The notes under the pieces are model-generated. The model saw nothing but the letters and a program-made list of their open reading frames with translations, was not told the DNA's origin and did no database searches. Positions 2,301 through 42,703 of a DNA stretch of 42,807 bases are shown here, one piece after another. The translations under genes were made by a program, and so were the position numbers. Position 1 is the stretch's first letter; every line of letters starts with the position of its first letter. This DNA comes from a virus. The DNA lies in the IMG/VR virus record IMGVR_UViG_3300030430_000378, positions 1-42,807 of that record. The stretch is one strand, 5' to 3'.

Positions 2301-2361
2301 GGCTACTTGGCTTGTAGGTAGCCGCTTCGGTTACGTCAGGGCCGCTGTGCGGGTAGCTGAC
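2301..2361 (-). promoter_or_regulatory. Paired RNA hairpins between virion gene and scaffold gene
   Basis: The 81-base gap upstream of the scaffold gene contains two inverted repeats. One pairs 2301-2306 (GGCTAC) with 2318-2323 (GTAGCC). The other is a two-part stem: 2335-2339 (GTCAG) with 2357-2361 (CTGAC), enclosing CCGC-TGT-GCGG at 2342-2352, and it ends on the stop codon of the 936-residue gene. Neither is followed by a U-run, so they do not look like intrinsic terminators. They could be RNA processing or stabilising elements that raise scaffold and capsid expression over the upstream genes; this role is inference. Confidence 0.4.
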
Positions 2362-5171
2362 TAATTCTGTCTAGCCTCATCAAGAACTTTCTCTTCTTGG
2401 CGTTCGGGTGTCGCCTCTTGAGGTCTATCAGCTATTCTTTTTTCATACGCCTTAGTAACGGCGTTTTCCATAAGTAATTGATTTGTTCGCGTAGCTAATT
2501 CTTTTAATTGTTCGCGTGATAATTCTGGGTCTAATAAAAACTGCATACGACGTTTAGGATTTTTAGGACTATTATCTATGACACCTGCACTTTTAATAAA
2601 GTTGCTTTGTTGGTCATCAGTCATAAAATTAAAGTTTCTTTTTATAAGAGCTGTTAAGCCAGACTCATCTAAACCCCCCCTGTTTACCAAAGCCTGTCCG
2701 GTTACAGAGTAAATATATGCGTGTTGTGATGTTGTTCCTGTACGGCGTTTTTCTTTGTTTTGCCTTGTTTGAGAAGTTCCTAGCTCACTACCAGCTTTTA
2801 AAAATGCTTCCAACTCTGATAGTTGGCCTTTTAAAATAGCTTCAAATTCAGCATCGTTCTCTAATCTCTGTGCGCCTCTGTGCATTAACTCGTGAGCAAA
2901 TACGTGACTTTGTGCGCGAGGTGTTGCAAAACCTTCTGTCAGCTTAGATGTAGCCCCAACATAAACTTTATCTGAATACGGTTGATACATACCCCCAGCA
3001 CCGTAAGATTTTAATATAAAATCCTCTTCTGTTTCTGTCTGATTAGATAAATTAATATCTCTTAAACCAGCGCGAAGAAGATTATTCCAATCGTATTGGT
3101 TTAAAAGGTCGAACCCTGCTTCCATGTCCCCAAAGGCTATGTTAGCTCTATCTACGTTTCTTTGAGTCTTTCTAGCTTGTCTTTCTGCAGCTAATTCTTT
3201 ATTGAGACTGTCTGTGTCCCCAAAAATATCTTCAACATTTAATTCTAAATCTGCTTGCATACTATCATGAGCATGTACTTCACCACCAACATGATATCCT
3301 GCACTTAGAAACCCACCCTGCGCTGCTTCTTGCAGACGCTCTTTGGTTTCTGGCTTACCACGATTATTAATTTTGTTGAGTCTGTCGTAGCCGATGATTT
3401 TAGCGAGGTACGGTGCAACCGTTACTTCACCACGAGAGATGGCTACATCTATTAGTTTAGTAGAGTTTTCTGGATTGTCAATAGTAATACCGCGTCTAAC
3501 TGCTTCTTTTTGTGCATCGTTCAGCATTTTCTTGATGTCTTGCTCTCCCGCGAACTCTACTGCGGCAGCGTTAATAACGAACGCACCTTCTGGCAGTTGT
3601 GTTTCTACGTTATCTGCAACAGTCTGTTCTTCGGGTACTTGGCTAGGCGGACGGTCAACAAAGCCAGACCCCATCCCTGCAGCCATCGCACCGCCTGCTG
3701 CCATGCCGACTGTTCCACCTTGAGCCATGTATGCGTCATCGTCATCTACATCAAAACTGTAATCACCAAAGCTACTACTAGTACCAAACGCAGACTCTGC
3801 ACTACCTGTTGAGAAACTAGGTCCACCCTCATCGCTAGAGTCACTATAAAAGTCTCCAGCTAAACGCTGCTGTCCAGCTTCAATATTACGTTGTCTTTGT
3901 TTTTCAGCCTCCGCAGCCTGACGTTGCCTATCAGCTTCCGCAGCCTTTGCTGCATCTATGTTTCCTTTAACAGTACCCTTACCAGCACGAGCGTCCATAA
4001 TAGCTTGTTTTGCAACATCAGGAGTTACACCGTACTGGTCTGCTAGTTTGTTAATTCCACTTTCAGGACCAGCCGCGCTGGTAGTTTGATAGCGTGTGCT
4101 ATAGTATCTACCATTTGGAGTGTAGTACCCATCCTTACCAGCAAAAGCACCTCCGATGTCTTCTACCTTTACATTTTTATCTCGACCGAAGAAGTCTTTT
4201 CCTTTCTTTTGGTCAAAACTATAGGTATCTACAATGTAACCTTCGTTAAAAGCCTCTATGTTTTTAGCTTGTTCAAAAGTTAATCCCCCCATATCAAAAT
4301 AAGTCTTAGCTCCTCTAGCTCGAAGTAATTTCCTACCTCCACCTAGCTTTGCAGAGTAACCTCTGTCGCCTATAGTACCGGAACTATGAGCAGATTTAAT
4401 ATCATTCATAATATCAAATGCACGAGACATTCTAGCATCATACAACACACTTAAAGGACCGGATGGTCGACGCGAAGGGTCTCCAAACTCGTCTAGCTGG
4501 TCTGTGCCACCAATAACGCTGCCTATTACACTTCCGGGGAGACCGCCAAGACTACTGAAAAGACCCGCAAGAGCCTTTGGTGCGCCTTTTTGAATACGTT
4601 CTTTTATTCCTGCAAGACCTTCTTCACGCAACTCAGCAAACTCTCCAGAAAGAGTCTGCGGCGCATCTTTAACAGCCTGTACACCTTCCCTAGCTTCCTG
4701 ACCAAGCGCACTAAAATCTATACCCTTAAAATCACCCTTCATTAAAGGTTCGTAAATTTTTTCGACAAGATTTACTCGGTCCATCTTTCCTGACTTTTCA
4801 AGATAATCAGAATACGAACTAAACTCTGAAGCACCAGTTTCTTGATAGCCAAATTTAGGTTGGAACCCATCCTTTTTTGCATCGAAATTATACGTGTTGG
4901 TATCGCCTATAATTCCTATCAAGTCTGTCTCAGGGCCACTAGCCTCATCTTTTGTAACATCGATATCTTGACCAACCTCTGGTGCGCTAGTTTCGATGCC
5001 AGACTCTTCTGCTAGGTCAGGAAGACCCAAGAACTCTCTTTGAAAATTAACATTACGAGACGCATATTCATCAGCCGTAAGAGCTTTCTGGCCTGTATAC
5101 TCAAACCCACCAGTATCGGTAGGGTCGAAGCCCAAGCGTGGTCCCGTCCCAATGTCAATTCTATCAGCCAT
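2361..5171 (-). CDS. Large virion protein with HExxH metallopeptidase-like motif
   Basis: A 936-residue protein between portal and scaffold genes. Residues 1-400 are soluble and Gly/Ser-rich with a hydrophobic glycine-rich patch near 200-225. Residues about 410-440 form an Ala/Gln/Arg coiled coil (AAKAAEADRQRQAAEAEKQR). A segment near 530-560 (LPEGAFVINAAAVEFAG) resembles a motif recurring in marine phage virion proteins. At residues 760-764 is HELMH in the context HVFAHELMHRGAQRLE, an HExxH zinc-protease signature, with Glu residues about 10-20 positions downstream that could be a third ligand. The start overlaps the previous small gene by 8 bases. It may be an ejected internal protein or a head-maturation protease; which is unknown. 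The coding call is firm, function tentative. Confidence 0.85.
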   Translation of the reverse strand: MADRIDIGTGPRLGFDPTDTGGFEYTGQKALTADEYASRNVNFQREFLGLPDLAEESGIETSAPEVGQDIDVTKDEASGPETDLIGIIGDTNTYNFDAKKDGFQPKFGYQETGASEFSSYSDYLEKSGKMDRVNLVEKIYEPLMKGDFKGIDFSALGQEAREGVQAVKDAPQTLSGEFAELREEGLAGIKERIQKGAPKALAGLFSSLGGLPGSVIGSVIGGTDQLDEFGDPSRRPSGPLSVLYDARMSRAFDIMNDIKSAHSSGTIGDRGYSAKLGGGRKLLRARGAKTYFDMGGLTFEQAKNIEAFNEGYIVDTYSFDQKKGKDFFGRDKNVKVEDIGGAFAGKDGYYTPNGRYYSTRYQTTSAAGPESGINKLADQYGVTPDVAKQAIMDARAGKGTVKGNIDAAKAAEADRQRQAAEAEKQRQRNIEAGQQRLAGDFYSDSSDEGGPSFSTGSAESAFGTSSSFGDYSFDVDDDDAYMAQGGTVGMAAGGAMAAGMGSGFVDRPPSQVPEEQTVADNVETQLPEGAFVINAAAVEFAGEQDIKKMLNDAQKEAVRRGITIDNPENSTKLIDVAISRGEVTVAPYLAKIIGYDRLNKINNRGKPETKERLQEAAQGGFLSAGYHVGGEVHAHDSMQADLELNVEDIFGDTDSLNKELAAERQARKTQRNVDRANIAFGDMEAGFDLLNQYDWNNLLRAGLRDINLSNQTETEEDFILKSYGAGGMYQPYSDKVYVGATSKLTEGFATPRAQSHVFAHELMHRGAQRLENDAEFEAILKGQLSELEAFLKAGSELGTSQTRQNKEKRRTGTTSQHAYIYSVTGQALVNRGGLDESGLTALIKRNFNFMTDDQQSNFIKSAGVIDNSPKNPKRRMQFLLDPELSREQLKELATRTNQLLMENAVTKAYEKRIADRPQEATPERQEEKVLDEARQN

Positions 5172-5385
5172 TTTTAACTATTGCCTCGTAATTACTCTTC
5201 AACTTGAGGAGCATTTCCACTAAAGCCAGCTTCCCCTGCACTTGGCGCAGTTCCGACTCCGATTGTGCCGTTACCACGGCCCGAATCATCGACTCCCGGA
5301 CTTCCTGCAGGTACTCCTCCATCAGGGGCCATTCCTTGTTGTTCACCAGCGGGGCCAGCTTCTGCGCTTGCTGCTTGTTGAGCAT
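5164..5385 (-). CDS. Small helical protein overprinted on the portal gene 3' end
   Basis: A 73-residue frame whose first 194 bases lie inside the end of the portal gene in another frame. The product is a coherent amphipathic helical protein (KEWPLMEEYLQEVRESM; ELRQVQGKLALVEMLLKL) resembling short conserved proteins I have seen beside portal genes in other phages. In the same bases the portal encodes a low-complexity Gly/Pro/Ser tail, so this frame, not the portal tail, carries the structured sequence. Its stop overlaps the start of the next gene by 8 bases (ATGGCTGA), consistent with translational coupling. The ribosome site is weak. Role unknown, possibly a portal or packaging partner. Confidence 0.68.
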   Translation of the reverse strand: MLNKQQAQKLAPLVNNKEWPLMEEYLQEVRESMIRAVVTAQSESELRQVQGKLALVEMLLKLKSNYEAIVKNG

Positions 5386-7309
5386 TTGCCATCATCCCTT
5401 GTAACATTTTCGCGTAGAGTTGTGCTTCGTTGGCATCATTCACCAGACTATCGGGGTCGATGTCTTGTGATATTGCCAACTCCCTCATCAGGTTTGGTAT
5501 CTTAACGAACGGAGCCAGCATCGGGTTCGATACTGTCTGCAATAAGGTTGTTAAACGCTGACTGCGAACTTCTTTTTGCATGACAGCCGCCACACCCCTT
5601 GGTTTTATTTCTAAATCGCCTATTATGTCCGGGGCATCGTCGTTAAATTGCATGTTCCATTGGAAATACGCTTCTCCTAATGGCTTTAGCAACATGTCAT
5701 CTATGTTCTTCACAACTGTCTTCATAGACAGCCCTGCAGACCCCATTAACATAGATAAACCTGCTGCGGTGCGTCCTGTGCCAGTAACGCCTGTCTGACC
5801 GTGCATAATCGACGGGATACCTGTTTCCTCATCAGCCAACTGTCGACTAATCTGATACATCTGAAGATTCTCACCAGCAGTGTTAGGAAACTTCAGGCCG
5901 TTGATTGCTGTGCCAGTAACACCTGACTGACGACGGAATATTTTGCCGGGGAAGATGTCCATGTTCTGACCCGGAACGAGGCTTGCCTCATCCACGTCAA
6001 ACACAAGGTTACCTGCCAACGCAAGATTATCGATTGCCATCCGAACGTGACCGTTCATCAACTTCTGTGCATCTTCCATATTCTCAGCAACACCAACACC
6101 CCACAACTGGTATGGGTTGACTTCATATGGGAAAACCTGATAAGGAATACGGGCTGGAGTGAAGGGGTTTAAGACACAGCGCAGAATCATGTTTCCACAA
6201 ACCCAGACGTTAACCTGAAGTTCGTCAAACTCTGACATCATGTCTGCTTCTTCGAAACCTGCTTCTTTTGCAAGTTTAGAATCTAAAACACCCCAATACT
6301 CTAAAACCTCATAGCGACTTTCAGAAACATAAGGCTCAGTCTCATCCTCACGAATAGTGTCTTCATAATACTTGTCCTCGTAATTAGGACCTTTTGCTAA
6401 ACACTCTTCGATAGCTTCCGCAATAAAATGTGGGCGTTTAATTAATCCTCGAAGTTGTTGACGATTCATTCTGTGACGCTCTATAACGTACTCACAGTCA
6501 TTTATGCTTGTAGCTGATGGGTCAGGGTGAAAGTCCCATGAAGACACCATCTCAATTCTAGGTACAACCTTTTCGTACGGCTGGTATTCTCGTTCGCCGT
6601 CCTCGTTGCGGCCCCACTGGTGGACACGCTTGTAAAAATTAAAAGGTCCCTTGACAATACCTGTGCCAAGAAGGGACGCTTCAAAAATAGCATTACGAAA
6701 TACGTTTACTGCGTTGGTATCAAGAAGCTGGTCATGGATAACCTTTTCCATGTTCATCGCTGCAATTTGTGCTGGACTAATTTGTGGTTCGCCCATCTTT
6801 GCAGGTCCTTCAGCAAGAGGCAACTGCCCGTACTCGCCCTGAAGACCGCCAAGGAAGTTCTTAGCTGGTTCTGCACCTAATGCCCCCGGCAACATCTCCC
6901 GTCCGTCACCAGCAAAACCATAAGGGTCTTGCATCTGGTCGAGAGGTGTCTCCATATGAGCAAACTCCGCAATCCCTTCTGGGACCGGAGTGTGTTGCAC
7001 AACCAACGGAAACTTCTTGTTGGCAAAAAGAATATCTACAATCTGACCATACGCTGCCAGAACTTTTGTCTTGGTAATCCTGACGAATACCTTAGACCGT
7101 TCTGAGTCACGGTAAGCTGTTGTAGAATCATATATGCCTCGAAAATTCTTGTAAGCCTGTAACCAACGTTGTTCATAAATGTAACGTCCGTTTTCTGCTT
7201 CTTCAAATTTTTCTTTTACATAGCCGTACAAACCCGGAAAAGAATCTTCAGGGTTGACTATAGGGACAGCAGTATCATCTTCAGGTTGAAGGAAATTATC
7301 TTCTGACAT
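5192..7309 (-). CDS. Portal (head-tail connector) protein
   Basis: A 705-residue protein in the terminase-portal-scaffold-capsid order. Supporting segments include an N-terminal helix-rich region (RYIYEQRWLQAYKNFRGIY), the central SWDFHPDPSA motif and following IERHRMNRQQL, and a YQVFPYEVNPYQLWGVGVAE stretch, all of the kind found in podophage portals of about 700 residues; a later region (GTGRTAAGLSMLMGSAG) precedes the crown helices. It forms the dodecameric ring at the packaging vertex and docks the terminase. The last roughly 65 residues are a Gly/Pro/Ser-rich disordered tail that shares DNA with the 73-residue gene. The start lies 3 bases after the preceding stop and lacks a clear ribosome site, suggesting coupling. 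Confidence 0.88.
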   Translation of the reverse strand: MSEDNFLQPEDDTAVPIVNPEDSFPGLYGYVKEKFEEAENGRYIYEQRWLQAYKNFRGIYDSTTAYRDSERSKVFVRITKTKVLAAYGQIVDILFANKKFPLVVQHTPVPEGIAEFAHMETPLDQMQDPYGFAGDGREMLPGALGAEPAKNFLGGLQGEYGQLPLAEGPAKMGEPQISPAQIAAMNMEKVIHDQLLDTNAVNVFRNAIFEASLLGTGIVKGPFNFYKRVHQWGRNEDGEREYQPYEKVVPRIEMVSSWDFHPDPSATSINDCEYVIERHRMNRQQLRGLIKRPHFIAEAIEECLAKGPNYEDKYYEDTIREDETEPYVSESRYEVLEYWGVLDSKLAKEAGFEEADMMSEFDELQVNVWVCGNMILRCVLNPFTPARIPYQVFPYEVNPYQLWGVGVAENMEDAQKLMNGHVRMAIDNLALAGNLVFDVDEASLVPGQNMDIFPGKIFRRQSGVTGTAINGLKFPNTAGENLQMYQISRQLADEETGIPSIMHGQTGVTGTGRTAAGLSMLMGSAGLSMKTVVKNIDDMLLKPLGEAYFQWNMQFNDDAPDIIGDLEIKPRGVAAVMQKEVRSQRLTTLLQTVSNPMLAPFVKIPNLMRELAISQDIDPDSLVNDANEAQLYAKMLQGMMANAQQAASAEAGPAGEQQGMAPDGGVPAGSPGVDDSGRGNGTIGVGTAPSAGEAGFSGNAPQVEE

Positions 7310-7537: not shown

Positions 7538-9352
7538 TTATCTAGATAAGAAGCCTTGGTCTTGATTGACAGGAGCGGCTTCGGGTCCCCTATCAATATT
7601 TACAAAGCCAGTATCGCGCATGGCTTCTTGTTCTGCGTCTGCTAAAAGTTCAGGTCTATTTTGTGTAAACTGAGGGTTTTTACGTTCTTCTTCAGTTAGG
7701 GTCTGGATGGCTGTTTGCTTTGGTTCCATCGCCATAGAAGCTGCGGCTGCTACTGCTACTGGTGCTTTAACTGCTAATAATGCACCTTCAATAGCCATAT
7801 CACGAGCGGCGGCGGCTGGCTCTGTTATCATGTAACGTGCTGCCTCAAGACCAATGGCTCCTGCAACTATTTTTGCACCTTTTCCTAAAATCGCATCCGC
7901 CATGCCCTTCGCATCAAAACCTTTACTATCTAAACTTGCTTTTGTTTCAGGGTTAGAAACATACTCAGGTTCTTTAGACGTAGGTTTTTCGGGAGGCATA
8001 TTTTCTTGTGCCGTTCTCCTTGCTGCCTCGGCTTCTAATAATTGTGTTTCCATTTGCGTCTTAGAAAGTTTTATATAAGTATCGGATGCTGAAGGGTCTA
8101 CATCTATAGAAACTGAAGCTATGTTTTTATCTGAAAAAGAAACTCCTTGAGATTTTTGCTGAACTATATCTTGAAAGTGAACAGGAAGTTTTGAAACTCC
8201 TTCTGCGCTGACTGCATATCTCTGTGTGTACGGAGACAACTGCGTAACACCTACATCAGAAAGAAATTGACCATGAGTTAGTGTAAACTTACCATCGGGA
8301 CCTTTTGTTCTGTTTCCTTCTGTAAGAAGAACATACGGTTCAAAGGCTTTAGCGTTAGCCTCTTCAATAGCACCTGATTGGTCTATAACAGCTTGGTACT
8401 TCTGAACGTTTCCTGCTGGAGGTCTCCAAGTAAGAGCTTTACGAACTAAGTCGTCGTCATTATAACCCTTCGCGCTTAACGAAGTTTCCATAACACGCCG
8501 AAAATCGTAAGCAGTAAAAGGCTGTTTAACGTACTCGCCTGTGCTTTCTTGTAAATATTCTATTTGAGGAATAGCCGAAGTTTTTAAAGCATCTCCTATA
8601 GTTTTATCCAAGGATGACGGCTTTTCAAAAACAAGACCGGATGTCTTATCCCCTATTATAGATTTTATGATGTCTCTTTGTGCCGTAGGTAGATAGCCGA
8701 TTTTTACATTAGTGCTTTTTTTACCGGGCTTTGCATCTGTTTTTAACTCTAGTCCCTTGACCAAGCCTGTATTAAAATCAATGTTCTCTATTTTTAAAGC
8801 TTTAAAGTCTGAGGGTCTGTAACCACCCATCATCATCAAGAGCATACGACCCCCTGCAGGGCGAGTCTTGGGGTCTGCCATCAAGCTAGCAGCTACACGC
8901 TTAGACTCTGTGTACACTTCTTGCGGAAACTGCAGAGGAATAAGTCTGCTTACATCTGTTGAAAATCCTGCGTTTAGATATGCAGCTTCACCCACAGAGC
9001 TTTTTAACATGGTGCGGAACGGGTTAGTTGTTCCTTGAGCAGTAACCCCCACCTCAGCAAGAATTGACTTAAAGTCTCCTATGAAGCCGTTTATAGAGTT
9101 AGTGCTTCCTTTTTCTATTATAGAATTAAATAGCTGCTTACCAGCGGGAGTTTCTTCAGTGATGTCACCTAAAGTTATGCCCGAAGCCCCTAGCTCATTT
9201 AATACCTGTGTTCTGGTTGCTTTTACTTTATCTGATATATCTGTTCTGTTATTGATGATATCCACAAGGTTAGAATCACGAAGAGCATCCCCTCGTGATT
9301 TACCTTCTGCTGTAATCTGACTGATAAAGTCTCTGCTAAAATCTACTGCCAT
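7538..9352 (-). CDS. Tyrosine-recombinase-like protein with C-terminal hydrophobic extension, in the virion cassette
   Basis: A 604-residue protein starting directly after the large terminase stop. Residues about 145-325 match the tyrosine recombinase layout: box I Arg179 in MMMGGYRPSDFKAL followed by KIENIDF; a Lys-rich beta-turn near 205-212; box II at 282-285 as YDFR, with Tyr where His is usual and Arg285 kept; Trp309 and nucleophile candidate Tyr319 in VQKYQ. The spacing Arg285-Trp309-Tyr319 resembles Cre (Arg292, Trp315, Tyr324). Residues 1-130 could be a core-binding domain. Beyond residue 350 is an unrelated extension with an Ala-rich hydrophobic stretch (about 475-540). Placement between terminase and portal is odd for an integrase; it may be a virion-borne or repurposed recombinase. 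Confidence 0.7.
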   Translation of the reverse strand: MAVDFSRDFISQITAEGKSRGDALRDSNLVDIINNRTDISDKVKATRTQVLNELGASGITLGDITEETPAGKQLFNSIIEKGSTNSINGFIGDFKSILAEVGVTAQGTTNPFRTMLKSSVGEAAYLNAGFSTDVSRLIPLQFPQEVYTESKRVAASLMADPKTRPAGGRMLLMMMGGYRPSDFKALKIENIDFNTGLVKGLELKTDAKPGKKSTNVKIGYLPTAQRDIIKSIIGDKTSGLVFEKPSSLDKTIGDALKTSAIPQIEYLQESTGEYVKQPFTAYDFRRVMETSLSAKGYNDDDLVRKALTWRPPAGNVQKYQAVIDQSGAIEEANAKAFEPYVLLTEGNRTKGPDGKFTLTHGQFLSDVGVTQLSPYTQRYAVSAEGVSKLPVHFQDIVQQKSQGVSFSDKNIASVSIDVDPSASDTYIKLSKTQMETQLLEAEAARRTAQENMPPEKPTSKEPEYVSNPETKASLDSKGFDAKGMADAILGKGAKIVAGAIGLEAARYMITEPAAAARDMAIEGALLAVKAPVAVAAAASMAMEPKQTAIQTLTEEERKNPQFTQNRPELLADAEQEAMRDTGFVNIDRGPEAAPVNQDQGFLSR

Positions 9353-11056
9353 CTAGTATCCGAATGTCCCGTCAAAAGGTTGGAACGCCTGTTCTTTTAT
9401 GCCTTGCAAAGTTTTGTGAATTGATGTATAACCGGAAGTGCGAGTCATAACCATATAACGGAGTGCATCATATGCGTGGTCTTCAGCTTTGGTATCTACA
9501 TCTTCACTGTTTGTTTTCGACAGTGGTATTCCCGACAGTTGCGCTGTGGTGTGCTTACATGTCGAGAAGATGCGTAAACGTGGTTCTTTGGTGTACGGGT
9601 CATCTGCCAATCTTCTGTGCAGTTCCATCTTGCCTTGAAGTCGGTTACGGTCAGATGGTGTCCAACGTACCCCCGCCCTCATCATAGTTTCTGCAATAGA
9701 TGGGCCGAATCCTGTCTTGTTCCAGCATGAGGCATCTAACACGTTATAGTGGGGAAGAGGGTCAAGTTCTTCCATTTGTAGTATTTTATCAGCCAACTGC
9801 TCTGCTGTCAAGTGCTTGGCATATAGCTCACGATAGACCCAGATGTTGTTATCCCAATCGATTGCACCCCACAGAACACAAGATGGTGAAGCATAGCCAT
9901 AGTCAGCGGCTCGTATACGGGGCCAGTTGTACGGCATCTCAAACGGTTCGACCACATGCCTTGCCCGTGAAAACTCAGGAAAGGCTGCGCCTTCCGCTAC
10001 GTCCCAATCTCCGTCCAATAACCTACGGCGTTCAACATCTGGCAACGAACGCAGCATAGCTTCGTACTGCCCATCTGCCATTAAGTATGGGTTGTCCGTC
10101 AGTCTTGCGGGGACGAACTTCCTGTAGAAGAGGGGCTTGCCTGCTTTTGTCGGATGTGTGTCAGGCCAAAGAAACGCTTTACCCGTCTCCGGGTCACTCG
10201 CCGCAAAAGCTTTGTTGGGTTCCGACGGGTCAATATACATTTTCTTAACCCACCAGCCACCAACGCCACCGGGGTTGGCAGTACAGCGCATACATAAGGT
10301 CTGCTGTAATTCTGAGTCTGTAGAGCGAAGGCGCGAACGCAGGTAATCCCAAACATAGCTACTCGGATATTGTGTTATTTCATCAACGCCTATCCAGTTG
10401 AAAGCCTGACCTTGGAAACGGGTCACGTCTTTGTCCCTGTCTAGGTATGTAAACCACATGGTTGCTCCAGAAGGAAAGACCCATGTTGATTTAGATTCTC
10501 TATAGATTGCGCCGGGAAACGCTTTGGGGTAAAGCTGTTTAGCTTTGTCGATAAGCTCAGTTAATTCGTCCAGAGTCCTGCGGAGAAGTAGACCACGGTG
10601 ATTAGGATTGTGACAATACCTGAGAGGGTCAGCAAGCAAGGCAAAGCTTTTTCCGCCCCCTGCTGCACCGCCATACAATACGTCCTGCTCTGGGGCAGAC
10701 AGAAACTCTTCTTGAGGACCTTCATTAGGTTGGAATATAACTGGTGTATCATCTATTAACTCTTGTACGGTTGCCGGGAGATTCGCAACGTCGTTGCCAT
10801 CCACGACCCGCGAACCTGTGCCGTTAAGCGCACCCTCCACCTTCTTCGCACTTTTCTTTAGTTTACGTGCGTAGCTGGCTTTGTCCTGCGCTTTCTTCTG
10901 GTGTTTTTCTTTTGCTTTTTCAGCCTTGCGAACACGAGCTTGTAAGGCTCTTCTTGCACGTTCGGCACGAGATAGGTTATATCGAGCCTTTGGTGCGTTA
11001 GGGTCCTTCTTGGGCCTACCGCGTTTTTTCGGCTGAGGGTCCTGATTTTCTTCCAC
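9353..11056 (-). CDS. terL: Terminase large subunit
   Basis: A 567-residue DNA-packaging ATPase/nuclease. The ATPase domain has a Walker A GGAAGGGKS at 129-137 and Walker B WIGVDE at 221-226, with TANPGG as the likely coupling motif near 260. The nuclease domain shows conserved acidic sites in RAADYG, NVLDASCW and a terminal DAYDALRYM. It would cut concatemers and pump DNA through the portal. The N-terminal 75 residues are an unusual very basic Lys/Arg/Ala extension beginning with an AT-hook-like KRGRPKK (11-17). The start is GTG, 6 bases after the previous stop; no upstream ATG exists in frame. Confidence 0.95.
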   Translation of the reverse strand: MEENQDPQPKKRGRPKKDPNAPKARYNLSRAERARRALQARVRKAEKAKEKHQKKAQDKASYARKLKKSAKKVEGALNGTGSRVVDGNDVANLPATVQELIDDTPVIFQPNEGPQEEFLSAPEQDVLYGGAAGGGKSFALLADPLRYCHNPNHRGLLLRRTLDELTELIDKAKQLYPKAFPGAIYRESKSTWVFPSGATMWFTYLDRDKDVTRFQGQAFNWIGVDEITQYPSSYVWDYLRSRLRSTDSELQQTLCMRCTANPGGVGGWWVKKMYIDPSEPNKAFAASDPETGKAFLWPDTHPTKAGKPLFYRKFVPARLTDNPYLMADGQYEAMLRSLPDVERRRLLDGDWDVAEGAAFPEFSRARHVVEPFEMPYNWPRIRAADYGYASPSCVLWGAIDWDNNIWVYRELYAKHLTAEQLADKILQMEELDPLPHYNVLDASCWNKTGFGPSIAETMMRAGVRWTPSDRNRLQGKMELHRRLADDPYTKEPRLRIFSTCKHTTAQLSGIPLSKTNSEDVDTKAEDHAYDALRYMVMTRTSGYTSIHKTLQGIKEQAFQPFDGTFGY

Positions 11057-14745: not shown

Positions 14746-15435
14746 TCAATGTGTCATAAATAAAACTTGCCTATCAGTTGCCGCCCAACATAGCGCACAG
14801 TTCGCACAGTTGGCAACATCGCCCGTCTGTTCTGGACAAATAAAAGAATGGCCTGATTTTGGCTGTTGGCGTTCAGTGCTATTAGCTGAAAAAATGTAAT
14901 CTAAATTATTGCTGAACCGGACAGAAAAGCGATTGCCAAAACGTTGACGAGTTTTTTCGATACGCTGACCTATTTTGCTTTCTCTTGTTCTGCCTGTATA
15001 TCCCCACACTGCCAAGTTGTCATATTCACTCAGCCACCATGCCCACAGATTGACATATCCTGTGGAATAAAAATCACCCAAAACATGCAGACGGATGATG
15101 ACACCTTTATAAGTGGCACACAGTTCCGCTATCTCTTCATTTAATTTGGCTTCGAGTGCTGGCCCGTGTTCAATACGATGAGCAAAACGCATATTATTTC
15201 CGTAACAGTTATCCCAGTGGTAGCACTCACGGGGACACGTTGCCCGTTCTTCAAGCGTAAGTGTAAAGATAACATAGCCTTTAAACTTGCCTTTCTTAAC
15301 AACGGGCAATTTCCCCTTATCAGCTATCTTGTTATTATTAGATAGTTTAAGCGCACCAGTTTTTAATTCTGCAATCGACCGCTTAGCGTTCGGATACATA
15401 GTTACTGCTGGCTTGTTTATATCTGCTTTTCTCAT
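14746..15435 (-). CDS. Gp88-family Cys-rich protein
   Basis: A 229-residue protein with the pattern of phage Gene product 88 (Pfam Gp88) proteins: a first cysteine group CPRECYHWDNC (Cys67, 71, 77), a central block RLHVLGDFYSTGYVNLW, a WGYTGR segment, and a C-terminal cysteine cluster (CANCALCW near residue 215). The cysteines suggest a metal or Fe-S centre. The biochemical role of the family is not established as far as I know. AAAGGA stands 10 bases before ATG. It is in a cluster of small Cys-rich proteins. Confidence 0.75.
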   Translation of the reverse strand: MRKADINKPAVTMYPNAKRSIAELKTGALKLSNNNKIADKGKLPVVKKGKFKGYVIFTLTLEERATCPRECYHWDNCYGNNMRFAHRIEHGPALEAKLNEEIAELCATYKGVIIRLHVLGDFYSTGYVNLWAWWLSEYDNLAVWGYTGRTRESKIGQRIEKTRQRFGNRFSVRFSNNLDYIFSANSTERQQPKSGHSFICPEQTGDVANCANCALCWAATDRQVLFMTH

Positions 15436-15478: not shown

Positions 15479-15661
15479 TTATGCAGTCCTGTCAAGTACC
15501 TTCTGTTTTTGCAAATAACAAACAGCGCAGTAAGTATTGAACGCATCCCAAACATCAGCCTTCGCACCGCACCCACAAAAATACTCCTGTTTAGTAGGAT
15601 GATTGCGTGGCGAGTTTGTCATGTTTAGCGTGACTGATTTGTCACGTTCAGCGTTTGTCAT
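15479..15661 (-). CDS. Small zinc-knuckle-like protein
   Basis: A 60-residue protein starting four bases after the previous stop. It has CGC (residues 29-31) and CAVC (about 45-48), four cysteines spaced like a zinc ribbon (C-x-C...C-x2-C). The N-terminal 25 residues are polar; an alternative internal start (MTNSPRN) would leave the zinc site intact. Function unknown. Confidence 0.6.
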   Translation of the reverse strand: MTNAERDKSVTLNMTNSPRNHPTKQEYFCGCGAKADVWDAFNTYCAVCYLQKQKVLDRTA

Positions 15662-15664
15662 TTG

Positions 15665-15904
15665 TCAGCAAACGTCCTTCCCTTGACAGTCTTTAGGATA
15701 ACACTGAGCAATCATAGCGTAATATGGATTTTTGCTGTATCTTGTCCAGCGTTTGTCATCAGCTAATTTCTCGCACTCTCTCTGTGTCATAGGCATTTCT
15801 AGTATCATTTGATTGCCTATGTACTCCCAGCCCTCGTTGAACTCCCCTTCAAGGTAGTATGTGGTATTTGCCCACATACTAATTACAAGCATAAATTCTT
15901 TCAT
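15665..15904 (-). CDS. Small protein with conserved Trp/Cys pattern, possibly exported
   Basis: A 79-residue protein starting at the ATG that overlaps the previous stop (ATGA); GGAG is 8 bases before it, which rules out the longer frame. MKEFMLVISMW gives a short hydrophobic N-terminus that could act as a weak signal sequence. The body (WEYIGNQMILEMPMTQRECEKL, YYAMIAQCYPKDC) resembles small phage proteins seen in other marine podophages. Cysteines at four C-terminal positions would suit disulfides outside the cytoplasm. Function unknown. Confidence 0.66.
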   Translation of the reverse strand: MKEFMLVISMWANTTYYLEGEFNEGWEYIGNQMILEMPMTQRECEKLADDKRWTRYSKNPYYAMIAQCYPKDCQGKDVC

Positions 15905-37450: not shown

Positions 37451-38497
37451 TTATAACTCCGCTGATGCCTCTAAATTAGCCTGATTTATGTGTGAGGTAT
37501 GTCCAGATGACCCTCCAGAAGCATCAATAGGACAATTAAAACCGTCATTAAACCCATAATTAGCAGACTGACCAGTTGCAGTTGCACCACTACTAGCATT
37601 TCTTACGTTATAATCTGTTACAGTTGGAGCGGCTCTCATTTGAGGAGCTAGCTGAACATAAACGCTTGTGCTTCCTGTGTAAGCGTGAAAACCACCATAG
37701 TAGGTATTGCCAAGTAATTTTTGATAATAACGTCTGCATCTATGCAACTCATCCCCAATAGACCGATGCTCAAATGGCGTGGCCTGTTCGCCTACTTCAA
37801 GCTGAATGCCAGTTATAAGCCATTCGTTATCAGTGCTATCAGATAAGTTTACTTGGCTTGAAGAAACTAAATTTGCTGTAGTTTGTGATGCCCATGTTGA
37901 GTTCATTGTGCCGCTTGTATAATTTGAACCTGCAGCAAGATACCATCTTATTTGATATGAATAAGCATTATCATTGTCTAATGCACCTGTAGTATCACCA
38001 TCAATTACAATTATTTTTCTTTCCCATGTATTTGCAGAATCTATCGTATATGTTTTTGATATACTACGACTGTTATCATTATCTCTAATAGAAGCTGTAT
38101 ATGTTCCTGTTTTATTTGATTTTACATAAAAAGACAAAGTGTGTTTCTTTGCAGAAGATGTTCCCTTTTTCAAAACTTGTAAATTTTGACCCTCTATTCT
38201 TTGTTGAAAAAATACAGCATGGTCAGCAGCAACAGAAGTATCCGCTGTCGTGCAATCAATTTTTGTTGAAAAACCAAATTCATCAGGTGTGGTTGTAGAT
38301 TGTGCTATTGTGTATGTTCCAGCATTTGTTACACCAAACTGAAATCTATCTACAGTGTTATATGCTGTGCCTGATGTTATGCCTGTTGTACTCGTACCCC
38401 TTTGAGCAACCTGCATTGCACCATTGATAATCAGATTCCTGTTTGACAGGGCTGTTTGCGAACCTATCAGTGCGGCTAGTTCTGCTGCTTTACTCAT
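37451..38497 (-). CDS. Tail fibre / receptor-binding protein
   Basis: A 348-residue protein with RNLIINGAMQVAQRGT at residues 20-35, the conserved beginning of many phage carbohydrate-binding tail fibre domains, then beta-sandwich repeats (HTLSFYVKSNKTGTYTASI) and a GIQLEVGEQATPFEHRS closing motif. The C-terminal 100 residues are Gly/Ser/Asn-rich. It should contact the host surface. Start overlaps the previous stop (ATGA). Confidence 0.83.
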   Translation of the reverse strand: MSKAAELAALIGSQTALSNRNLIINGAMQVAQRGTSTTGITSGTAYNTVDRFQFGVTNAGTYTIAQSTTTPDEFGFSTKIDCTTADTSVAADHAVFFQQRIEGQNLQVLKKGTSSAKKHTLSFYVKSNKTGTYTASIRDNDNSRSISKTYTIDSANTWERKIIVIDGDTTGALDNDNAYSYQIRWYLAAGSNYTSGTMNSTWASQTTANLVSSSQVNLSDSTDNEWLITGIQLEVGEQATPFEHRSIGDELHRCRRYYQKLLGNTYYGGFHAYTGSTSVYVQLAPQMRAAPTVTDYNVRNASSGATATGQSANYGFNDGFNCPIDASGGSSGHTSHINQANLEASAEL

Positions 38498-38871
38498 GCT
38501 AGGTCTCCGTGTGTTGTTCCAGACAAGCCGCTAGAATCTGCTTGGTTAGTATATGTTGATTCCTGAAAACACGAGAATTTTACTATTGAAGCCGTATTTC
38601 CAGTTGTAATAATTCTCCTATTGGTTGACGTATGAATAGCATGAACATTTGCGTAATTAGCATCAGAGTGAGCATTCGTTAGGGTGGCGTTTGTTAACCC
38701 TGTACCACCGTCTGCAAGACTAGAAACATTAAAACTGTCAGCTATATCGTGTGTGCCATCTTGGTCACAGTTAAGAAACATTTTTGCAGTGCCATTGCTA
38801 ACCGTACTCATGGCAACAGAGTTGTTACCGCTGGCATCCTTCAGGGTGTTTACTCTTAGTTCGCTTGCCAT
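38494..38871 (-). CDS. Tail fibre array member 1 (GDLA family)
   Basis: A 125-residue beta-rich protein: LRVNTLKDASGNNSVA start, DSFNVSSLADGGTGLTN core, and THGDLA end. The same pattern occurs in five other genes of this block. Coupled to the adhesin gene downstream (ATGA) and to the next array member upstream (one-base TAATG overlap). Probably an adhesin or fibre subunit. Confidence 0.78.
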   Translation of the reverse strand: MASELRVNTLKDASGNNSVAMSTVSNGTAKMFLNCDQDGTHDIADSFNVSSLADGGTGLTNATLTNAHSDANYANVHAIHTSTNRRIITTGNTASIVKFSCFQESTYTNQADSSGLSGTTHGDLA

Positions 38872-39260
38872 TATGCTAAATCCCCTGCTATAACTGCCGC
38901 ATTATTACCGTCTGTAAAAGCACCAGAACTGTTGACTGTAGAGGCTCTATAGGCTGTTGTGCTTGCTGCGTAGCCCTGATAAATATAATTACTTTGCGAA
39001 CTTGAAATTACGGGATAGTCAGCATTATTCATAGCGTTGGTAAGTGTAAATTCTGCTATACCTGTTGCATAATCTACATACCCAGCAACATTAAAGGTGT
39101 CTCCTTGTATAGCCCCAGCAGAGTGATTGCCGCCTTCAACAAAAGATTTTATTAATCCCTGCTGTAACTGCATAGTTGCAGAGCCACCCTCGCTGGTAAT
39201 CGTAATGTTGCCAGCCGCTGTGTTACCTCTTAGGTCATCTACTTTAAGTATGCTTGCCAT
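38871..39260 (-). CDS. Tail fibre array member 2 (GDLA family)
   Basis: A 129-residue protein. The start at 39260 (MASILKVDDLRG) overlaps the previous stop by one base. Core elements DTFNVAGYVDYATGIAEFT and LTNAMNNADYPV match the family's DSFN...TGDYT...TNxMSxANY pattern; ends in GDLA. Diverged in the middle from member 1. Confidence 0.75.
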   Translation of the reverse strand: MASILKVDDLRGNTAAGNITITSEGGSATMQLQQGLIKSFVEGGNHSAGAIQGDTFNVAGYVDYATGIAEFTLTNAMNNADYPVISSSQSNYIYQGYAASTTAYRASTVNSSGAFTDGNNAAVIAGDLA

Positions 39261-39703
39261 TATGCTAAATCCCCTATAGCTGATAGCCATGCCTTACTTA
39301 CGTCAGTTGCACCACCGTCACTACCCGCTGTTGAACCATATGCAGTTGCAAACTGTATTGACCCAGCAGAAAGAGGGTCAATGTCAGAACTACTACCAAC
39401 TCCCACGGTTATGTTTGTAAATGCTCTTGTTGCACCAGAAATAGCATTTGCTCCATCACCAGCACTATTGTACAAACCTAATAAAATGCATCTGTCATGT
39501 TGGCTTGAAAATGCGTTAGTCTTGGATATTGTCCCTTCGCCCGTGGCTTCATCTGTATAGCTACTTGCGTTCAAAGACCCCTCAATAGCATTGTTTACAG
39601 TGTCCATAGAAACCCAAAACTTACTAGCTTCCTGCTTTGTCAACGTAGCAGCAGACGTGCCATCCTTTGCCGCAATGGTATCTACATTCAGTACACTGGT
39701 CAT
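39260..39703 (-). CDS. Tail fibre array member 3 (GDLA family)
   Basis: A 147-residue protein starting at 39703 (ATGA overlap with the tail-fibre gene upstream). N-terminus SVLNVDTIAAKDGTSAATL, then KFWVSMDTVNNAIEGSLN where other members have AKxWVNFNG; ends AIGDLA. A longer variable middle than its relatives. Confidence 0.75.
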   Translation of the reverse strand: MTSVLNVDTIAAKDGTSAATLTKQEASKFWVSMDTVNNAIEGSLNASSYTDEATGEGTISKTNAFSSQHDRCILLGLYNSAGDGANAISGATRAFTNITVGVGSSSDIDPLSAGSIQFATAYGSTAGSDGGATDVSKAWLSAIGDLA

Positions 39704-40158
39704 ACGATGCTCCAATACCCGTTAACAGTCACGGTAGCAGACTGTGTGATTGGCCCTGCACTCACGCCATTCTCATCAGAGTCAATGGTAATGTCTGCGC
39801 TGATGGTCTGACCGTTCAAACGGATGATGCTGTTGTTGCCCTTGAATGGGTAGCGAGTGTCACTCTCCGTCTTGGTGTACGAGTTCGCAATGCTGAACGC
39901 ATCGTAGACTACCATCTCAACTACGTCATTCAGGGATGCCCCTGTCACCAGCACAACGGTTGTGCCTGTTGTAGCAGTGTAGTCTGTACCCGGCTTAAGT
40001 AACACACCATTCTGATATACGTCTAGGTACAAGCTATCTGTGTAGGTCAGTGTCTTACTGTCTGCGTCACTACCGCTGAAGCTAGTCTGACCAGCAGTTG
40101 CTTGATAGACAAAGCGGTTGCGAACACCGAACTCTGGGGATTTACCTATATATGGCAT
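39700..40158 (-). CDS. Tail fibre protein
   Basis: A 152-residue protein with GVRNRFVYQATAGQTSFSG near the start and YLDVYQNGVLLKPGTDYT, TTVVLVTGASLNDVVEMV, blocks I know from many marine phage tail fibre proteins. It is shorter than most such proteins and ends in TVNGYWSIV. ATGA overlap to the next gene. It would be a shaft or tip part of the fibre. Confidence 0.82.
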   Translation of the reverse strand: MPYIGKSPEFGVRNRFVYQATAGQTSFSGSDADSKTLTYTDSLYLDVYQNGVLLKPGTDYTATTGTTVVLVTGASLNDVVEMVVYDAFSIANSYTKTESDTRYPFKGNNSIIRLNGQTISADITIDSDENGVSAGPITQSATVTVNGYWSIV

Positions 40159-40162
40159 CTGA

Positions 40163-40684
40163 TTACCCTGCTATCTCTGTTGCAACAATAGTAGATATGG
40201 TGCGCTCATGTCCTGAATTATCTGAATCTGTTGCAGTTCTGTTTAAAGAAAATGTTCCATTGCTTAATTCCATCATTGCACCTTTATATGTTATTTGGCT
40301 TGTACTTGATGGCGTGTCAAAATAGTTTATCCAAGCAACAGCAGGAGTGGAAAGATTGTCATCAGCAGTGTAGTTTGTCGCACCCATTCCAATCGCTTCA
40401 GTTCTACTGCCAGCCGTTGGCGCAACTAAAAGTGTGCTATCTCTATAAAAACCAAAATAACACATATGGTCATCAGCAGCACTGTGTTCCCAAGCACCTA
40501 TAAATAATTGTAACATAATTATACTAGATGTTGATGTAGGAGTAATGTTAACCGTTAAATCTGTTATTACATTCCAAACATTATTGGTTGTGCTAATGGT
40601 ATTAGTGCCAGTAAACTGAGTACGTTGCACTTGAATAACACCACCAGAGGCATACGCTCCTGCTCTTATTTTAGTTAATGGCAT
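40163..40684 (-). CDS. Tail fibre-associated protein
   Basis: A 173-residue beta-rich protein (GVIQVQRTQFTGTNTIST; VNITPTSTSSIIMLQLF) with a middle like fibre domains that describe a lectin fold. A GGAG site lies eight bases before ATG. It belongs to a fibre-tip family common in marine metagenomic phages. It does not end in GDLA, so it is not part of the paralogous array. Confidence 0.74.
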   Translation of the reverse strand: MPLTKIRAGAYASGGVIQVQRTQFTGTNTISTTNNVWNVITDLTVNITPTSTSSIIMLQLFIGAWEHSAADDHMCYFGFYRDSTLLVAPTAGSRTEAIGMGATNYTADDNLSTPAVAWINYFDTPSSTSQITYKGAMMELSNGTFSLNRTATDSDNSGHERTISTIVATEIAG

Positions 40685-40716
40685 CTACCTACTCCAAATA
40701 GGGGAAGCCCCACGCA

Positions 40717-41088
40717 TTATGCGTAAGGGCTATCACCAAGTACACTCGTATCCCAAGCTGCCTTTAGCTTTGCGATTGTATCTGCGTTAGTAATTGCAGA
40801 TGCTGCTGGGGCATCACGAAGGGCTTTCTTCTTATTTACAGAAGCAGTTTTTGCGTCTGCATCATCAGCTTCAAGTGCCTTCATGTACACCACGTCTTCT
40901 GCTTCAAGCAGAGGCGCACGAACTTCACGGATTTTGTCCTTGAAGATTACTTTGGCTGCGTCCATATCTTCTGATATGACTTTGCCACTCAATGACCATG
41001 CACCACGAAAGTGACGGTCAGAAGGAACGGTAGCTGTAGAAGCATCAATCTGATTTCCGTCCTTGTCTACGATGTATGTTGTTGCCAT
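40717..41088 (-). CDS. Tail-fibre region protein, possible assembly factor
   Basis: A 123-residue helical, Ala/Lys/Asp-rich protein. RDKIREVRAPLL-type helix (KDKIREVRAPLLEAEDVVYM) and NKKKALRDAPAA correspond to a small family often found next to phage fibre genes. Good ribosome site (AAGGAG). Probable fibre chaperone or accessory protein; not proven. Confidence 0.73.
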   Translation of the reverse strand: MATTYIVDKDGNQIDASTATVPSDRHFRGAWSLSGKVISEDMDAAKVIFKDKIREVRAPLLEAEDVVYMKALEADDADAKTASVNKKKALRDAPAASAITNADTIAKLKAAWDTSVLGDSPYA

Positions 41089-41101
41089 TAGGTTTCTCCT
41101 T

Positions 41102-41575
41102 TTAGGCTGCTAAATCAGTGACGGTTAGTTCTTCAGTTATCTTCCAAGCATTGCGCCACTCTCTAGTGCTTGGTAACTGTTCTTTGCGGCAAATAACCAT
41201 CTTGGGTTTGTTGCCTGTATTCCATTCCCGCCAAACGTGCTGGGGGCAGTCTTTCATAATCAGATACTCAATCGCCTGTTCTTCTGTCATGGCTTCCATT
41301 GGTTCTGTGTTGTGCAACAGATAGCCACGAGTATGTTTCTTGAAGTCGGGCTGCGCTTCGTCTTTGGCAAGTTCCCAATACACCCAGACCGGGGGTAGGA
41401 TACCACCCTGCATAGCTGCTGCCATCCAATTAGGGTCTGGTACAAGTATCTTAGCACACTCGTCAATACTGTCTTCGTAGACTACACGGTACTCTGACTG
41501 ATAGCCTTCTAAGTTTTCTTTTGCCCAGCACAGTCTATCCCACAAGTGTGTGCCTTGAAACTCTGGTGTGTCCAT
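41102..41575 (-). CDS. Tail-region hypothetical protein
   Basis: A 157-residue Trp-rich protein starting with EFQGTHLWDRLCWAKENLEG, followed by GILPPVWVYWELAKDEAQP and MEAMTEEQAIEYLIMKDC. It overlaps the previous GDLA gene by one base (TAATG). A homologous-looking form appears beside fibre genes in other marine phages; role unknown. Confidence 0.72.
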   Translation of the reverse strand: MDTPEFQGTHLWDRLCWAKENLEGYQSEYRVVYEDSIDECAKILVPDPNWMAAAMQGGILPPVWVYWELAKDEAQPDFKKHTRGYLLHNTEPMEAMTEEQAIEYLIMKDCPQHVWREWNTGNKPKMVICRKEQLPSTREWRNAWKITEELTVTDLAA

Positions 41576-41937
41576 TATGCGAGGTCTCCATGTGCTGACT
41601 GTGCAAGTATAGTTGTGTCTGAGTTTCCACTTCCACCTACGGTAAATGCTTGAAATCTGATACTTGATGTGTTTCCTGTTGAACTATAGTAAGTATTATT
41701 TCTTCCACTCGTCATGTTTGCGGCAGGTTCATCAGAAAAAGAATTAGTTAAATTTACCGTGTAATCTCCAGTGCCATTATCTGTTAAAGAAGAAACATTA
41801 AAACTTGTTCTTATTGCTATAGTGCCACTGCCATTAAAATTAACCCAAGTCTTCGCACTACCATTCACAACGTACTGTGTATCAAGCGACCCTGCAGTGC
41901 TGTGTTCTAGTTGGTCTGCTACAATCTTTCCAGCCAT
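41575..41937 (-). CDS. Tail fibre array member 4 (GDLA family)
   Basis: A 120-residue protein closest to the array consensus: NGSAKTWVNFNGSGTIAIRT, then SFNVSSLTDNGTGDYTVNLT, then SAHGDLA. The first two blocks are a widespread marine phage fibre motif. One-base overlap couplings at both ends (TAATG). Confidence 0.78.
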   Translation of the reverse strand: MAGKIVADQLEHSTAGSLDTQYVVNGSAKTWVNFNGSGTIAIRTSFNVSSLTDNGTGDYTVNLTNSFSDEPAANMTSGRNNTYYSSTGNTSSIRFQAFTVGGSGNSDTTILAQSAHGDLA

Positions 41938-42317
41938 TATGCTAAGTCTCCGTGTGTAGAACTACCAGTTTGCGTTGTATCTTGCAATGAGCCACCCGTA
42001 TCTCTTATTCTTTGATAATGAGAGTTACTACCACTGCCAAATACTTCTCCAATTCCGTATGACCCATTTGAACACAAGTAAACAGATATGGCGTTGCCTG
42101 ATACATTATTAGTGTAAATTACTTGAAAGTTTCCAGTTCCGTGGTCTGTGACGCTACTTACATTCCATGATTGTTGGTTGATATTATTAGTAAGGTCATA
42201 ATAAATACCTACTACTGCTAAACCATCTTGCAACTTCATGGTTACAGAACCTTCAGTGACCGTTACATCCCCAGCAGTGCTTACGCCAGTGAGTTTGTTT
42301 GTTAGTATCTCACTCAT
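41937..42317 (-). CDS. Tail fibre array member 5 (GDLA family)
   Basis: A 126-residue protein: ILTNKLTGVSTAGDVTVTEG start like member 2, SWNVSSVTDHGTGNFQVIYT core, and STHGDLA end. It shares the family core with a diverged C-terminal third, where surface-exposed loops would be. Confidence 0.77.
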   Translation of the reverse strand: MSEILTNKLTGVSTAGDVTVTEGSVTMKLQDGLAVVGIYYDLTNNINQQSWNVSSVTDHGTGNFQVIYTNNVSGNAISVYLCSNGSYGIGEVFGSGSNSHYQRIRDTGGSLQDTTQTGSSTHGDLA

Positions 42318-42703
42318 GCTAGGTCTCCATGCACCGTAGAAAGGCCAATACCAGCGTCTATATAAACAGTGTGTGCGTCAGCATCTAAATAAAAGTTATT
42401 AAAGACGTAATTGCTTGTTGTGATTTGGTCTGGATTTTGTATTCTAGCGTCAGTACTTGCCGCAGCAGGGTCTCTTCCACCTCCACAGTCAGGAGCATAA
42501 TTTGCGTTGCTCATGTTATTAGTAAAAGCGAAAGTGTAATCTCCTGCCCCATTATCTGTTGCAGTAGAATTATTAAAACTGTCAAGTAAGGTTGGCACAC
42601 TTGACCCTACAAATCTATTCCAAGCCTTTGCTGCGTGTTGCTTTGTCAGCGTAGCCGCACCGCCACTGGTGTTCTGAATTGTATCTGCTTTCAACGTACT
42701 CAT
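42314..42703 (-). CDS. Tail fibre array member 6 (GDLA family)
   Basis: A 129-residue protein: STLKADTIQNTSGGAATLTK start, KAWNRFVGSSVPTLLDSFNN, TDNGAGDYTFAFTNNMSNAN, and VHGDLA end. Its start overlaps the stop of the partial fibre gene upstream (ATGA). Confidence 0.77.
   Translation of the reverse strand: MSTLKADTIQNTSGGAATLTKQHAAKAWNRFVGSSVPTLLDSFNNSTATDNGAGDYTFAFTNNMSNANYAPDCGGGRDPAAASTDARIQNPDQITTSNYVFNNFYLDADAHTVYIDAGIGLSTVHGDLA

Follow-up and report, generated by a model that had tools for sequence, protein, structure and literature searches.

What is a protein that resembles a tyrosine recombinase doing among the head genes of a marine phage, between the large terminase subunit and the portal protein? 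The window, i.e., the whole stretch of DNA analysed here, is a 42.8-kb virus record (42,807 nt) and represents an incomplete genome of an HMO-2011-type marine podovirus, compared with about 55 kb for HMO-2011 itself. Its DNA polymerase carries the partial DnaJ insert typical of these phages (PMC9038755). They are described as a dominant group of viruses in the sea, and those of their lineages in which no integrase is known have been taken to be probably lytic (PMC9038755). The forward frame of 7538..9352 is riddled with stop codons, and the open reading frame runs on the minus strand from 9352 to 7538. Its placement in the late operon, proposed in the original prediction, is confirmed by the terminase and portal genes on either side (11056..9353 and 7309..5192), a 72-aa ORF separating the recombinase from the portal:

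9353..11056, minus strand, terminase large subunit gene (terL), by Pfam and PHROG
7538..9352, minus strand, recombinase gene of the terL-portal slot, 604 aa, starting directly after the terL stop codon
7313..7531, minus strand, 72-aa ORF bordering the portal side of the slot, with homologues in 100 loci, empty slots included
5192..7309, minus strand, portal protein gene, SU10 type

Several other regions of the window deserve mention in their own right. The gene directly after the portal (2361-5171, minus strand, 936 aa) has an HELMH motif resembling those of zinc metalloproteases, as well as an internal GGFLS. Its counterparts in relatives are also of large size and vary in their C-terminal part, and a second exchangeable slot may thus flank the portal. 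A row of small tail-fibre-like ORFs (38494-42703, minus strand), most of them ending in the same ...GDLA terminal peptide, looks like a tandem paralogue array with a common C-terminus. A Gp88 homologue (PF17338) lies at 14746-15435 on the minus strand, and three 27-nt imperfect direct repeats around AGCGTTTGTCAT occupy positions 15612-15759, upstream of the replication genes and with no clear gene.

Fold and active site of the slot protein

The proposed tyrosine recombinase fold was borne out by structure prediction and fold search. At the level of sequence profiles, the PF00589 match of the window protein (residues 170-321, E 3.4e-4) reaches 20.9 bits and stays below the curated cut-off of 27.1, which is exceeded by three members from the same slot of related phages (L072, L090 and L095), while the PHROG_1 "integrase" match spans residues 59-345 (E 6.9e-6). 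The AlphaFold2 model, based on 13 homologues, has pLDDT values mostly of 70-90 for residues 1-450 and is disordered from about 452 to 604. The leading Foldseek matches in the PDB are tyrosine recombinases throughout, with XerA first (4.9e-4), followed by Tn1549 Int, an archaeal Xer and Cre, and the named leading matches in BFVD are integrases. Alignments of about 330 columns to residues 82-397 of Tn1549 Int cover both the core-binding-like and the catalytic domain. The low TM-scores presumably reflect the long tail in the model and two domains that are free to rotate, and no rival fold competes. It is highly likely, in our judgement, that the gene encodes a real recombinase. The domains and key positions of the protein are as follows:

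8933..9352, minus strand, N-terminal core-binding-like helical domain, residues 1-140 (AlphaFold2 helices, pLDDT mostly 80-90)
8318..8932, minus strand, catalytic domain, residues 141-345 (PF00589 at 170-321; dN/dS 0.06 against L003)
8816..8818, minus strand, R179, catalytic Arg I, Arg in 62/63 slot recombinases
8741..8743, minus strand, K204, beta-hairpin Lys, invariant in 13 closer relatives and Lys in 34/63 overall
8507..8509, minus strand, Y282, HxxR His position, in a column of Y/S/K/T/A/E/G with His in only 3 of the aligned proteins
8498..8500, minus strand, R285, catalytic Arg II (YDFR, 282-285), Arg in 62/62 aligned
8423..8425, minus strand, R310, box III (His/Trp) position, with R in 37, H in 24 and K in 1 of 62 slot recombinases
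8396..8398, minus strand, Y319, nucleophile position, Tyr in 62/62 aligned

The original prediction had read a Cre-type catalytic set from Arg179, Arg285, Trp309 and Tyr319. Both arginines and the tyrosine are present and conserved among relatives as listed above, but Trp309 does not stand as the equivalent of the Cre tryptophan, its column holding W, L or G. The spacing of 9 between His/Trp III and the tyrosine is known for XerD, lambda Int and Cre; since members with a classical MGH or LGH box III align their histidine to R310, which lies at that spacing from Y319, the box III residue is R310, one position further on. This residue, together with R179, K204, R285 and Y319, is invariant in the 13 closer relatives. 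The window protein thus lacks two residues that are usual, though not universal, in the superfamily: the HxxR histidine (Tyr282) and the box III His/Trp (Arg310). Among the HMM-aligned members that histidine is found only in L090, L136 and L095, and also, by eye, in L072. The loss of the histidine in nearly all members and the box III arginine in many make activity less than certain. The loss does not exclude it, as the working integrase of phage CRP-3 (PMC6918029) has an HxxR box reading RDLR (MDLR in HMO-2011), likewise without the histidine. Judged from its sequence, the slot recombinase is most likely catalytically competent.

These same substitutions, together with the position among head genes, would be accommodated if the recombinase fold had been turned into a head protein that serves structurally or binds DNA without catalysing, and a structural use had indeed been raised in the original prediction. 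A purely structural role is nevertheless very improbable: the tyrosine and both arginines are near invariant amid strong, even extreme, divergence elsewhere, L072, L090 and L095 are canonical enough to pass the Pfam cut-off, and a catalytic-domain dN/dS near 0.06 places the core under strong constraint.

Another candidate suggested by the HxxR position found no support. Telomere resolvases of the ResT and TelK type have Tyr or Lys at this site, as does the window protein with its Tyr; the slot protein has no family match to them, and the (incomplete) window contains no inverted repeat with arms of at least 14 bp within 60 bp. The search for recombination sites through inverted repeats likewise gave nothing convincing.

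Conservation of the slot and exchange of its core

IMG/VR contigs for the survey of relatives were fetched via TerL and portal only, so that the survey was blind to the content of the slot. Of the 41 contigs whose portal shares 65% identity or more with that of the window, 39 have a recombinase between TerL and portal. By portal identity, the slot holds a recombinase in 22/22 contigs at 75% or more, in 17/19 at 65-75%, in 11/32 at 55-65% and in 0/19 below 55%. All readable contexts have the order TerL-recombinase-portal (40 in full and 12 truncated where the contig stops, with none found elsewhere). At every recombinase locus, the start of the gene lies between -1 and +5 nt from the terL stop codon; this spacing makes translational coupling to the large terminase the most likely arrangement, and late expression is very probable.

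Recognition of the family required some care. The 76 different slot proteins at first seemed unrelated, and a slot with random cargo was considered; this idea was abandoned once an iterated HMM found a recombinase core in 63 of them. As E-values of an iterated HMM are not independent, the assignment rests on direct PF00589 matches (31/69 at E<=0.1) and on the invariant catalytic columns. Searches of annotated phage records matched neither the window protein nor the slot protein L022, and for L095 they returned only ordinary integrases; these records contained no cultured phage that carries the gene. Overall, there is good support for a tyrosine recombinase that occurs throughout the clade, belongs to the late operon and has an exchangeable core.

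Not every relative carries it. In other contigs, at about 62-66% portal identity, the slot is empty, TerL being followed by, in most cases, a homologue of the 72-aa ORF and then by the portal, and some relatives have another large protein in its place. In two cultured rhizobial phages these are a FAD-oxidoreductase-like protein (RHph_N3_19; L016 3935-6484) and, along with other genes, a GDSL-hydrolase-like protein (phiM6; L017 5222-6829). Four further non-recombinase slot proteins, at 63-65% portal identity, have no convincing family match (L074 6748-7716, L076 828-1796, L080 5714-6811 and L128 2961-3977), the first two sharing a GGKVYS..RKPKF C-terminus.

Close relatives reveal how the recombinase itself changes. 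L012 is 98.4% identical to the window in TerL and 96.7% in the portal, yet its core gives no BLAST alignment to that of the window protein while the tail remains 70% identical; in L027 the corresponding values are 96.3% and 96.2%, with a core only 27% identical. The first 167 residues of L012 and L027 are 85% identical to each other. Such differences between otherwise nearly identical loci indicate that the core has been exchanged inside one ORF. The L012 core has no Pfam match, and its leading Foldseek matches, with weak E-values from a low-confidence model, are all recombinases. Between the window and L001, dS is 0.007 for the catalytic domain, 0.176 for TerL and 0.66 for the tail, so that core and tail evidently move separately.

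This exchange bears on the possibility that the protein works late inside the cell, on phage DNA that has already been replicated, for instance by resolving concatemers or dimers or by assisting the terminase in choosing or completing a cut. DNA work during packaging would account for the position of the gene and accords with its coupling to terL. A packaging cofactor, however, should co-evolve with TerL and portal, and here cores are swapped between phages with 96-98% identical TerL; moreover, relatives with an empty slot manage with the small ORF only. We consider such a role improbable.

The C-terminal part of the protein evolves under a different regime. The extension of about 258 residues with an Ala-rich stretch, noted in the original prediction, is present, and it includes two features:

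7541..8002, minus strand, disordered, fast-changing tail, residues 451-604, ending in GFLSR (pLDDT mostly 22-36)
7727..7783, minus strand, hydrophobic Ala-rich stretch, residues 524-542 (19-residue Kyte-Doolittle value 1.78)

Membrane attachment, which the hydrophobic stretch had suggested, was rejected: just 6 of 64 relatives have a C-terminal segment that reaches 1.6 on the Kyte-Doolittle scale, most relatives are modestly hydrophobic, and the stretch is thus not kept at membrane level. The tail, which is mosaic, has a dN/dS of 0.4-0.6 against L001 and L003. What many tails share is their very end: in 36 of the 63 slot recombinases, the final 15 residues include [SGN]F[LIV] (0.8 expected from shuffling; 23 of 47 after dereplication), bearing in mind that the motif is short, that related tails are not independent and that some 40% of tails do not have it. 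An end of this type, when Ala too is accepted as its first residue, is found in 2.7% of other ORFs from the same loci, and several of the few non-recombinase carriers are the gene directly after the portal. BLAST comparison of slot proteins with post-portal proteins gave weak matches only. The shared tail end has the appearance that a putative docking peptide would be expected to have.

The slot protein shares with known tyrosine recombinases (PF00589, PHROG_1; XerA/XerD, Tn1549 Int, Cre) the core-binding and catalytic fold, Arg I, Arg II and the tyrosine, as well as, in closer relatives, the beta-hairpin lysine, and it departs from the usual members in having Tyr for the HxxR histidine, Arg at His/Trp III, a long disordered tail, a location in the packaging operon and a core exchanged within the ORF.

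Lysogeny or a possible delivery with the particle

The most familiar role for such an enzyme would be that of an ordinary lysogeny integrase that has moved to the late operon, its core swaps reflecting changes of attachment site, as between lambdoid phages. The fold and catalytic residues are in keeping with this, and integrase swapping among close relatives is normal for temperate phages, which the core exchange would fit. No second integrase was detected with PF00589 in 22 related records, some of them near-complete in length, although a very divergent one could be missed, because the same model misses several divergent slot genes. Furthermore, the HMO-2011-type group includes a proven integrator, CRP-3, which inserts at a tRNA-Met (PMC6918029). 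The claim that Phe at polymerase position 762 is at odds with lysogeny fails for the same reason: CRP-3 and HMO-2011 both have Phe at this position, which is therefore no argument against lysogeny in this group.

Against a lysogeny role stands the genetic context. Some HMO-2011-type subgroups have an integrase gene before the replication genes (PMC6918029, PMC9038755); that integrase, located ahead of the primase, is absent from the window and has no detectable relation to the slot gene. The integrases of HMO-2011 and CRP-3 are tyrosine recombinases of the same phage group and, like the slot protein, lack the HxxR histidine, but they differ in their position before the primase, in their length of about 290-360 aa and in having a histidine in a GH box III. 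Beside the slot gene no intergenic attP is apparent, the genes abutting one another, and no tRNA or tRNA fragment was found; nor was a repressor or an excisionase recognisable among the ORFs scanned, the latter in agreement with the original prediction. GTDB genome contigs, in which marine hosts are under-sampled, yielded no relative of the slot gene and no integrated prophage carrying it, and the portal relatives found there were without it. We regard a relocated lysogeny integrase as unlikely.

The swapping of the core while the ends stay put rather suggests a protein that may ship in the particle instead of serving to hide the phage in the host chromosome. A recombinase made late and possibly packaged is the best-supported reading of these comparisons, and carriage in the virion, for which the chances appear about even, fits best by analogy, as the slot position matches those of known portal-adjacent virion proteins. 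These include the SPP1 gp7/MuF family (PMC5576092), whose MuF members beside the portal carry exchangeable effector domains and have been proposed to be delivered with DNA (PMC5576092), and 80alpha gp44, an ejected protein encoded beside the portal, for which a part in circularising the incoming genome has been proposed (PMC7290940). The MuF polymorphic toxins of temperate phages share with the slot gene a portal-adjacent location and the combination of a constant part with an exchangeable effector (PMC5576092); the slot, however, lies on the other side of the portal, towards TerL, and its variable part is nearly always a recombinase. No MuF domain appeared among Pfam matches (E<=0.1) of the window protein or of 69 slot proteins. 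In the case of 80alpha gp44, the likeness is that of head-operon genes near the portal, and the difference is that gp44 is a non-specific end-binding protein, not a recombinase, encoded between the portal and the scaffold and capsid genes. Trace Cre peptides have been detected in P1 virions and were set aside by the authors (PMC9024508).

How a particle-borne recombinase might work can be outlined conditionally. The core-binding and catalytic domains would form the exchangeable unit, flanked by ends that are retained or reshuffled independently: on the N-terminal side an optional module of some 140 aa, and on the other the disordered tail, often with its terminal [SGN]F[LIV] peptide. These ends could dock the protein to portal, scaffold or capsid, so that it would enter the head and be ejected with the DNA. 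Once delivered, it would cut and rejoin DNA through the usual Arg-Arg-Tyr phosphotyrosine chemistry, its target being either a resident element or the incoming genome, which it could circularise, resolve from dimers or integrate. Swapping the core would change the target site and leave delivery unchanged. Taken as a whole, the explanation that the gene encodes a recombinase which is produced late, is competent for catalysis, has an exchangeable core and may be carried by the virion falls slightly short of an even chance. More tentative is the full head-delivered system, in which docking ends load an interchangeable core and a phage without an orthodox integrase rearranges its own, host or competitor DNA at entry and retargets by core swap. 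That the enzyme acts, specifically, on the genome of its own phage upon entry seems rather doubtful.

If the packaging operon of an entire subclade indeed encodes a recombinase that is conserved and looks functional, the assignment of a lytic life-style to these phages needs to be revisited. Retained ends combined with a swapped catalytic core would amount to a natural modular system that delivers a recombinase into bacteria. The locus also makes testable the question of whether a site-specific recombinase travels inside the particles of any tailed phage.
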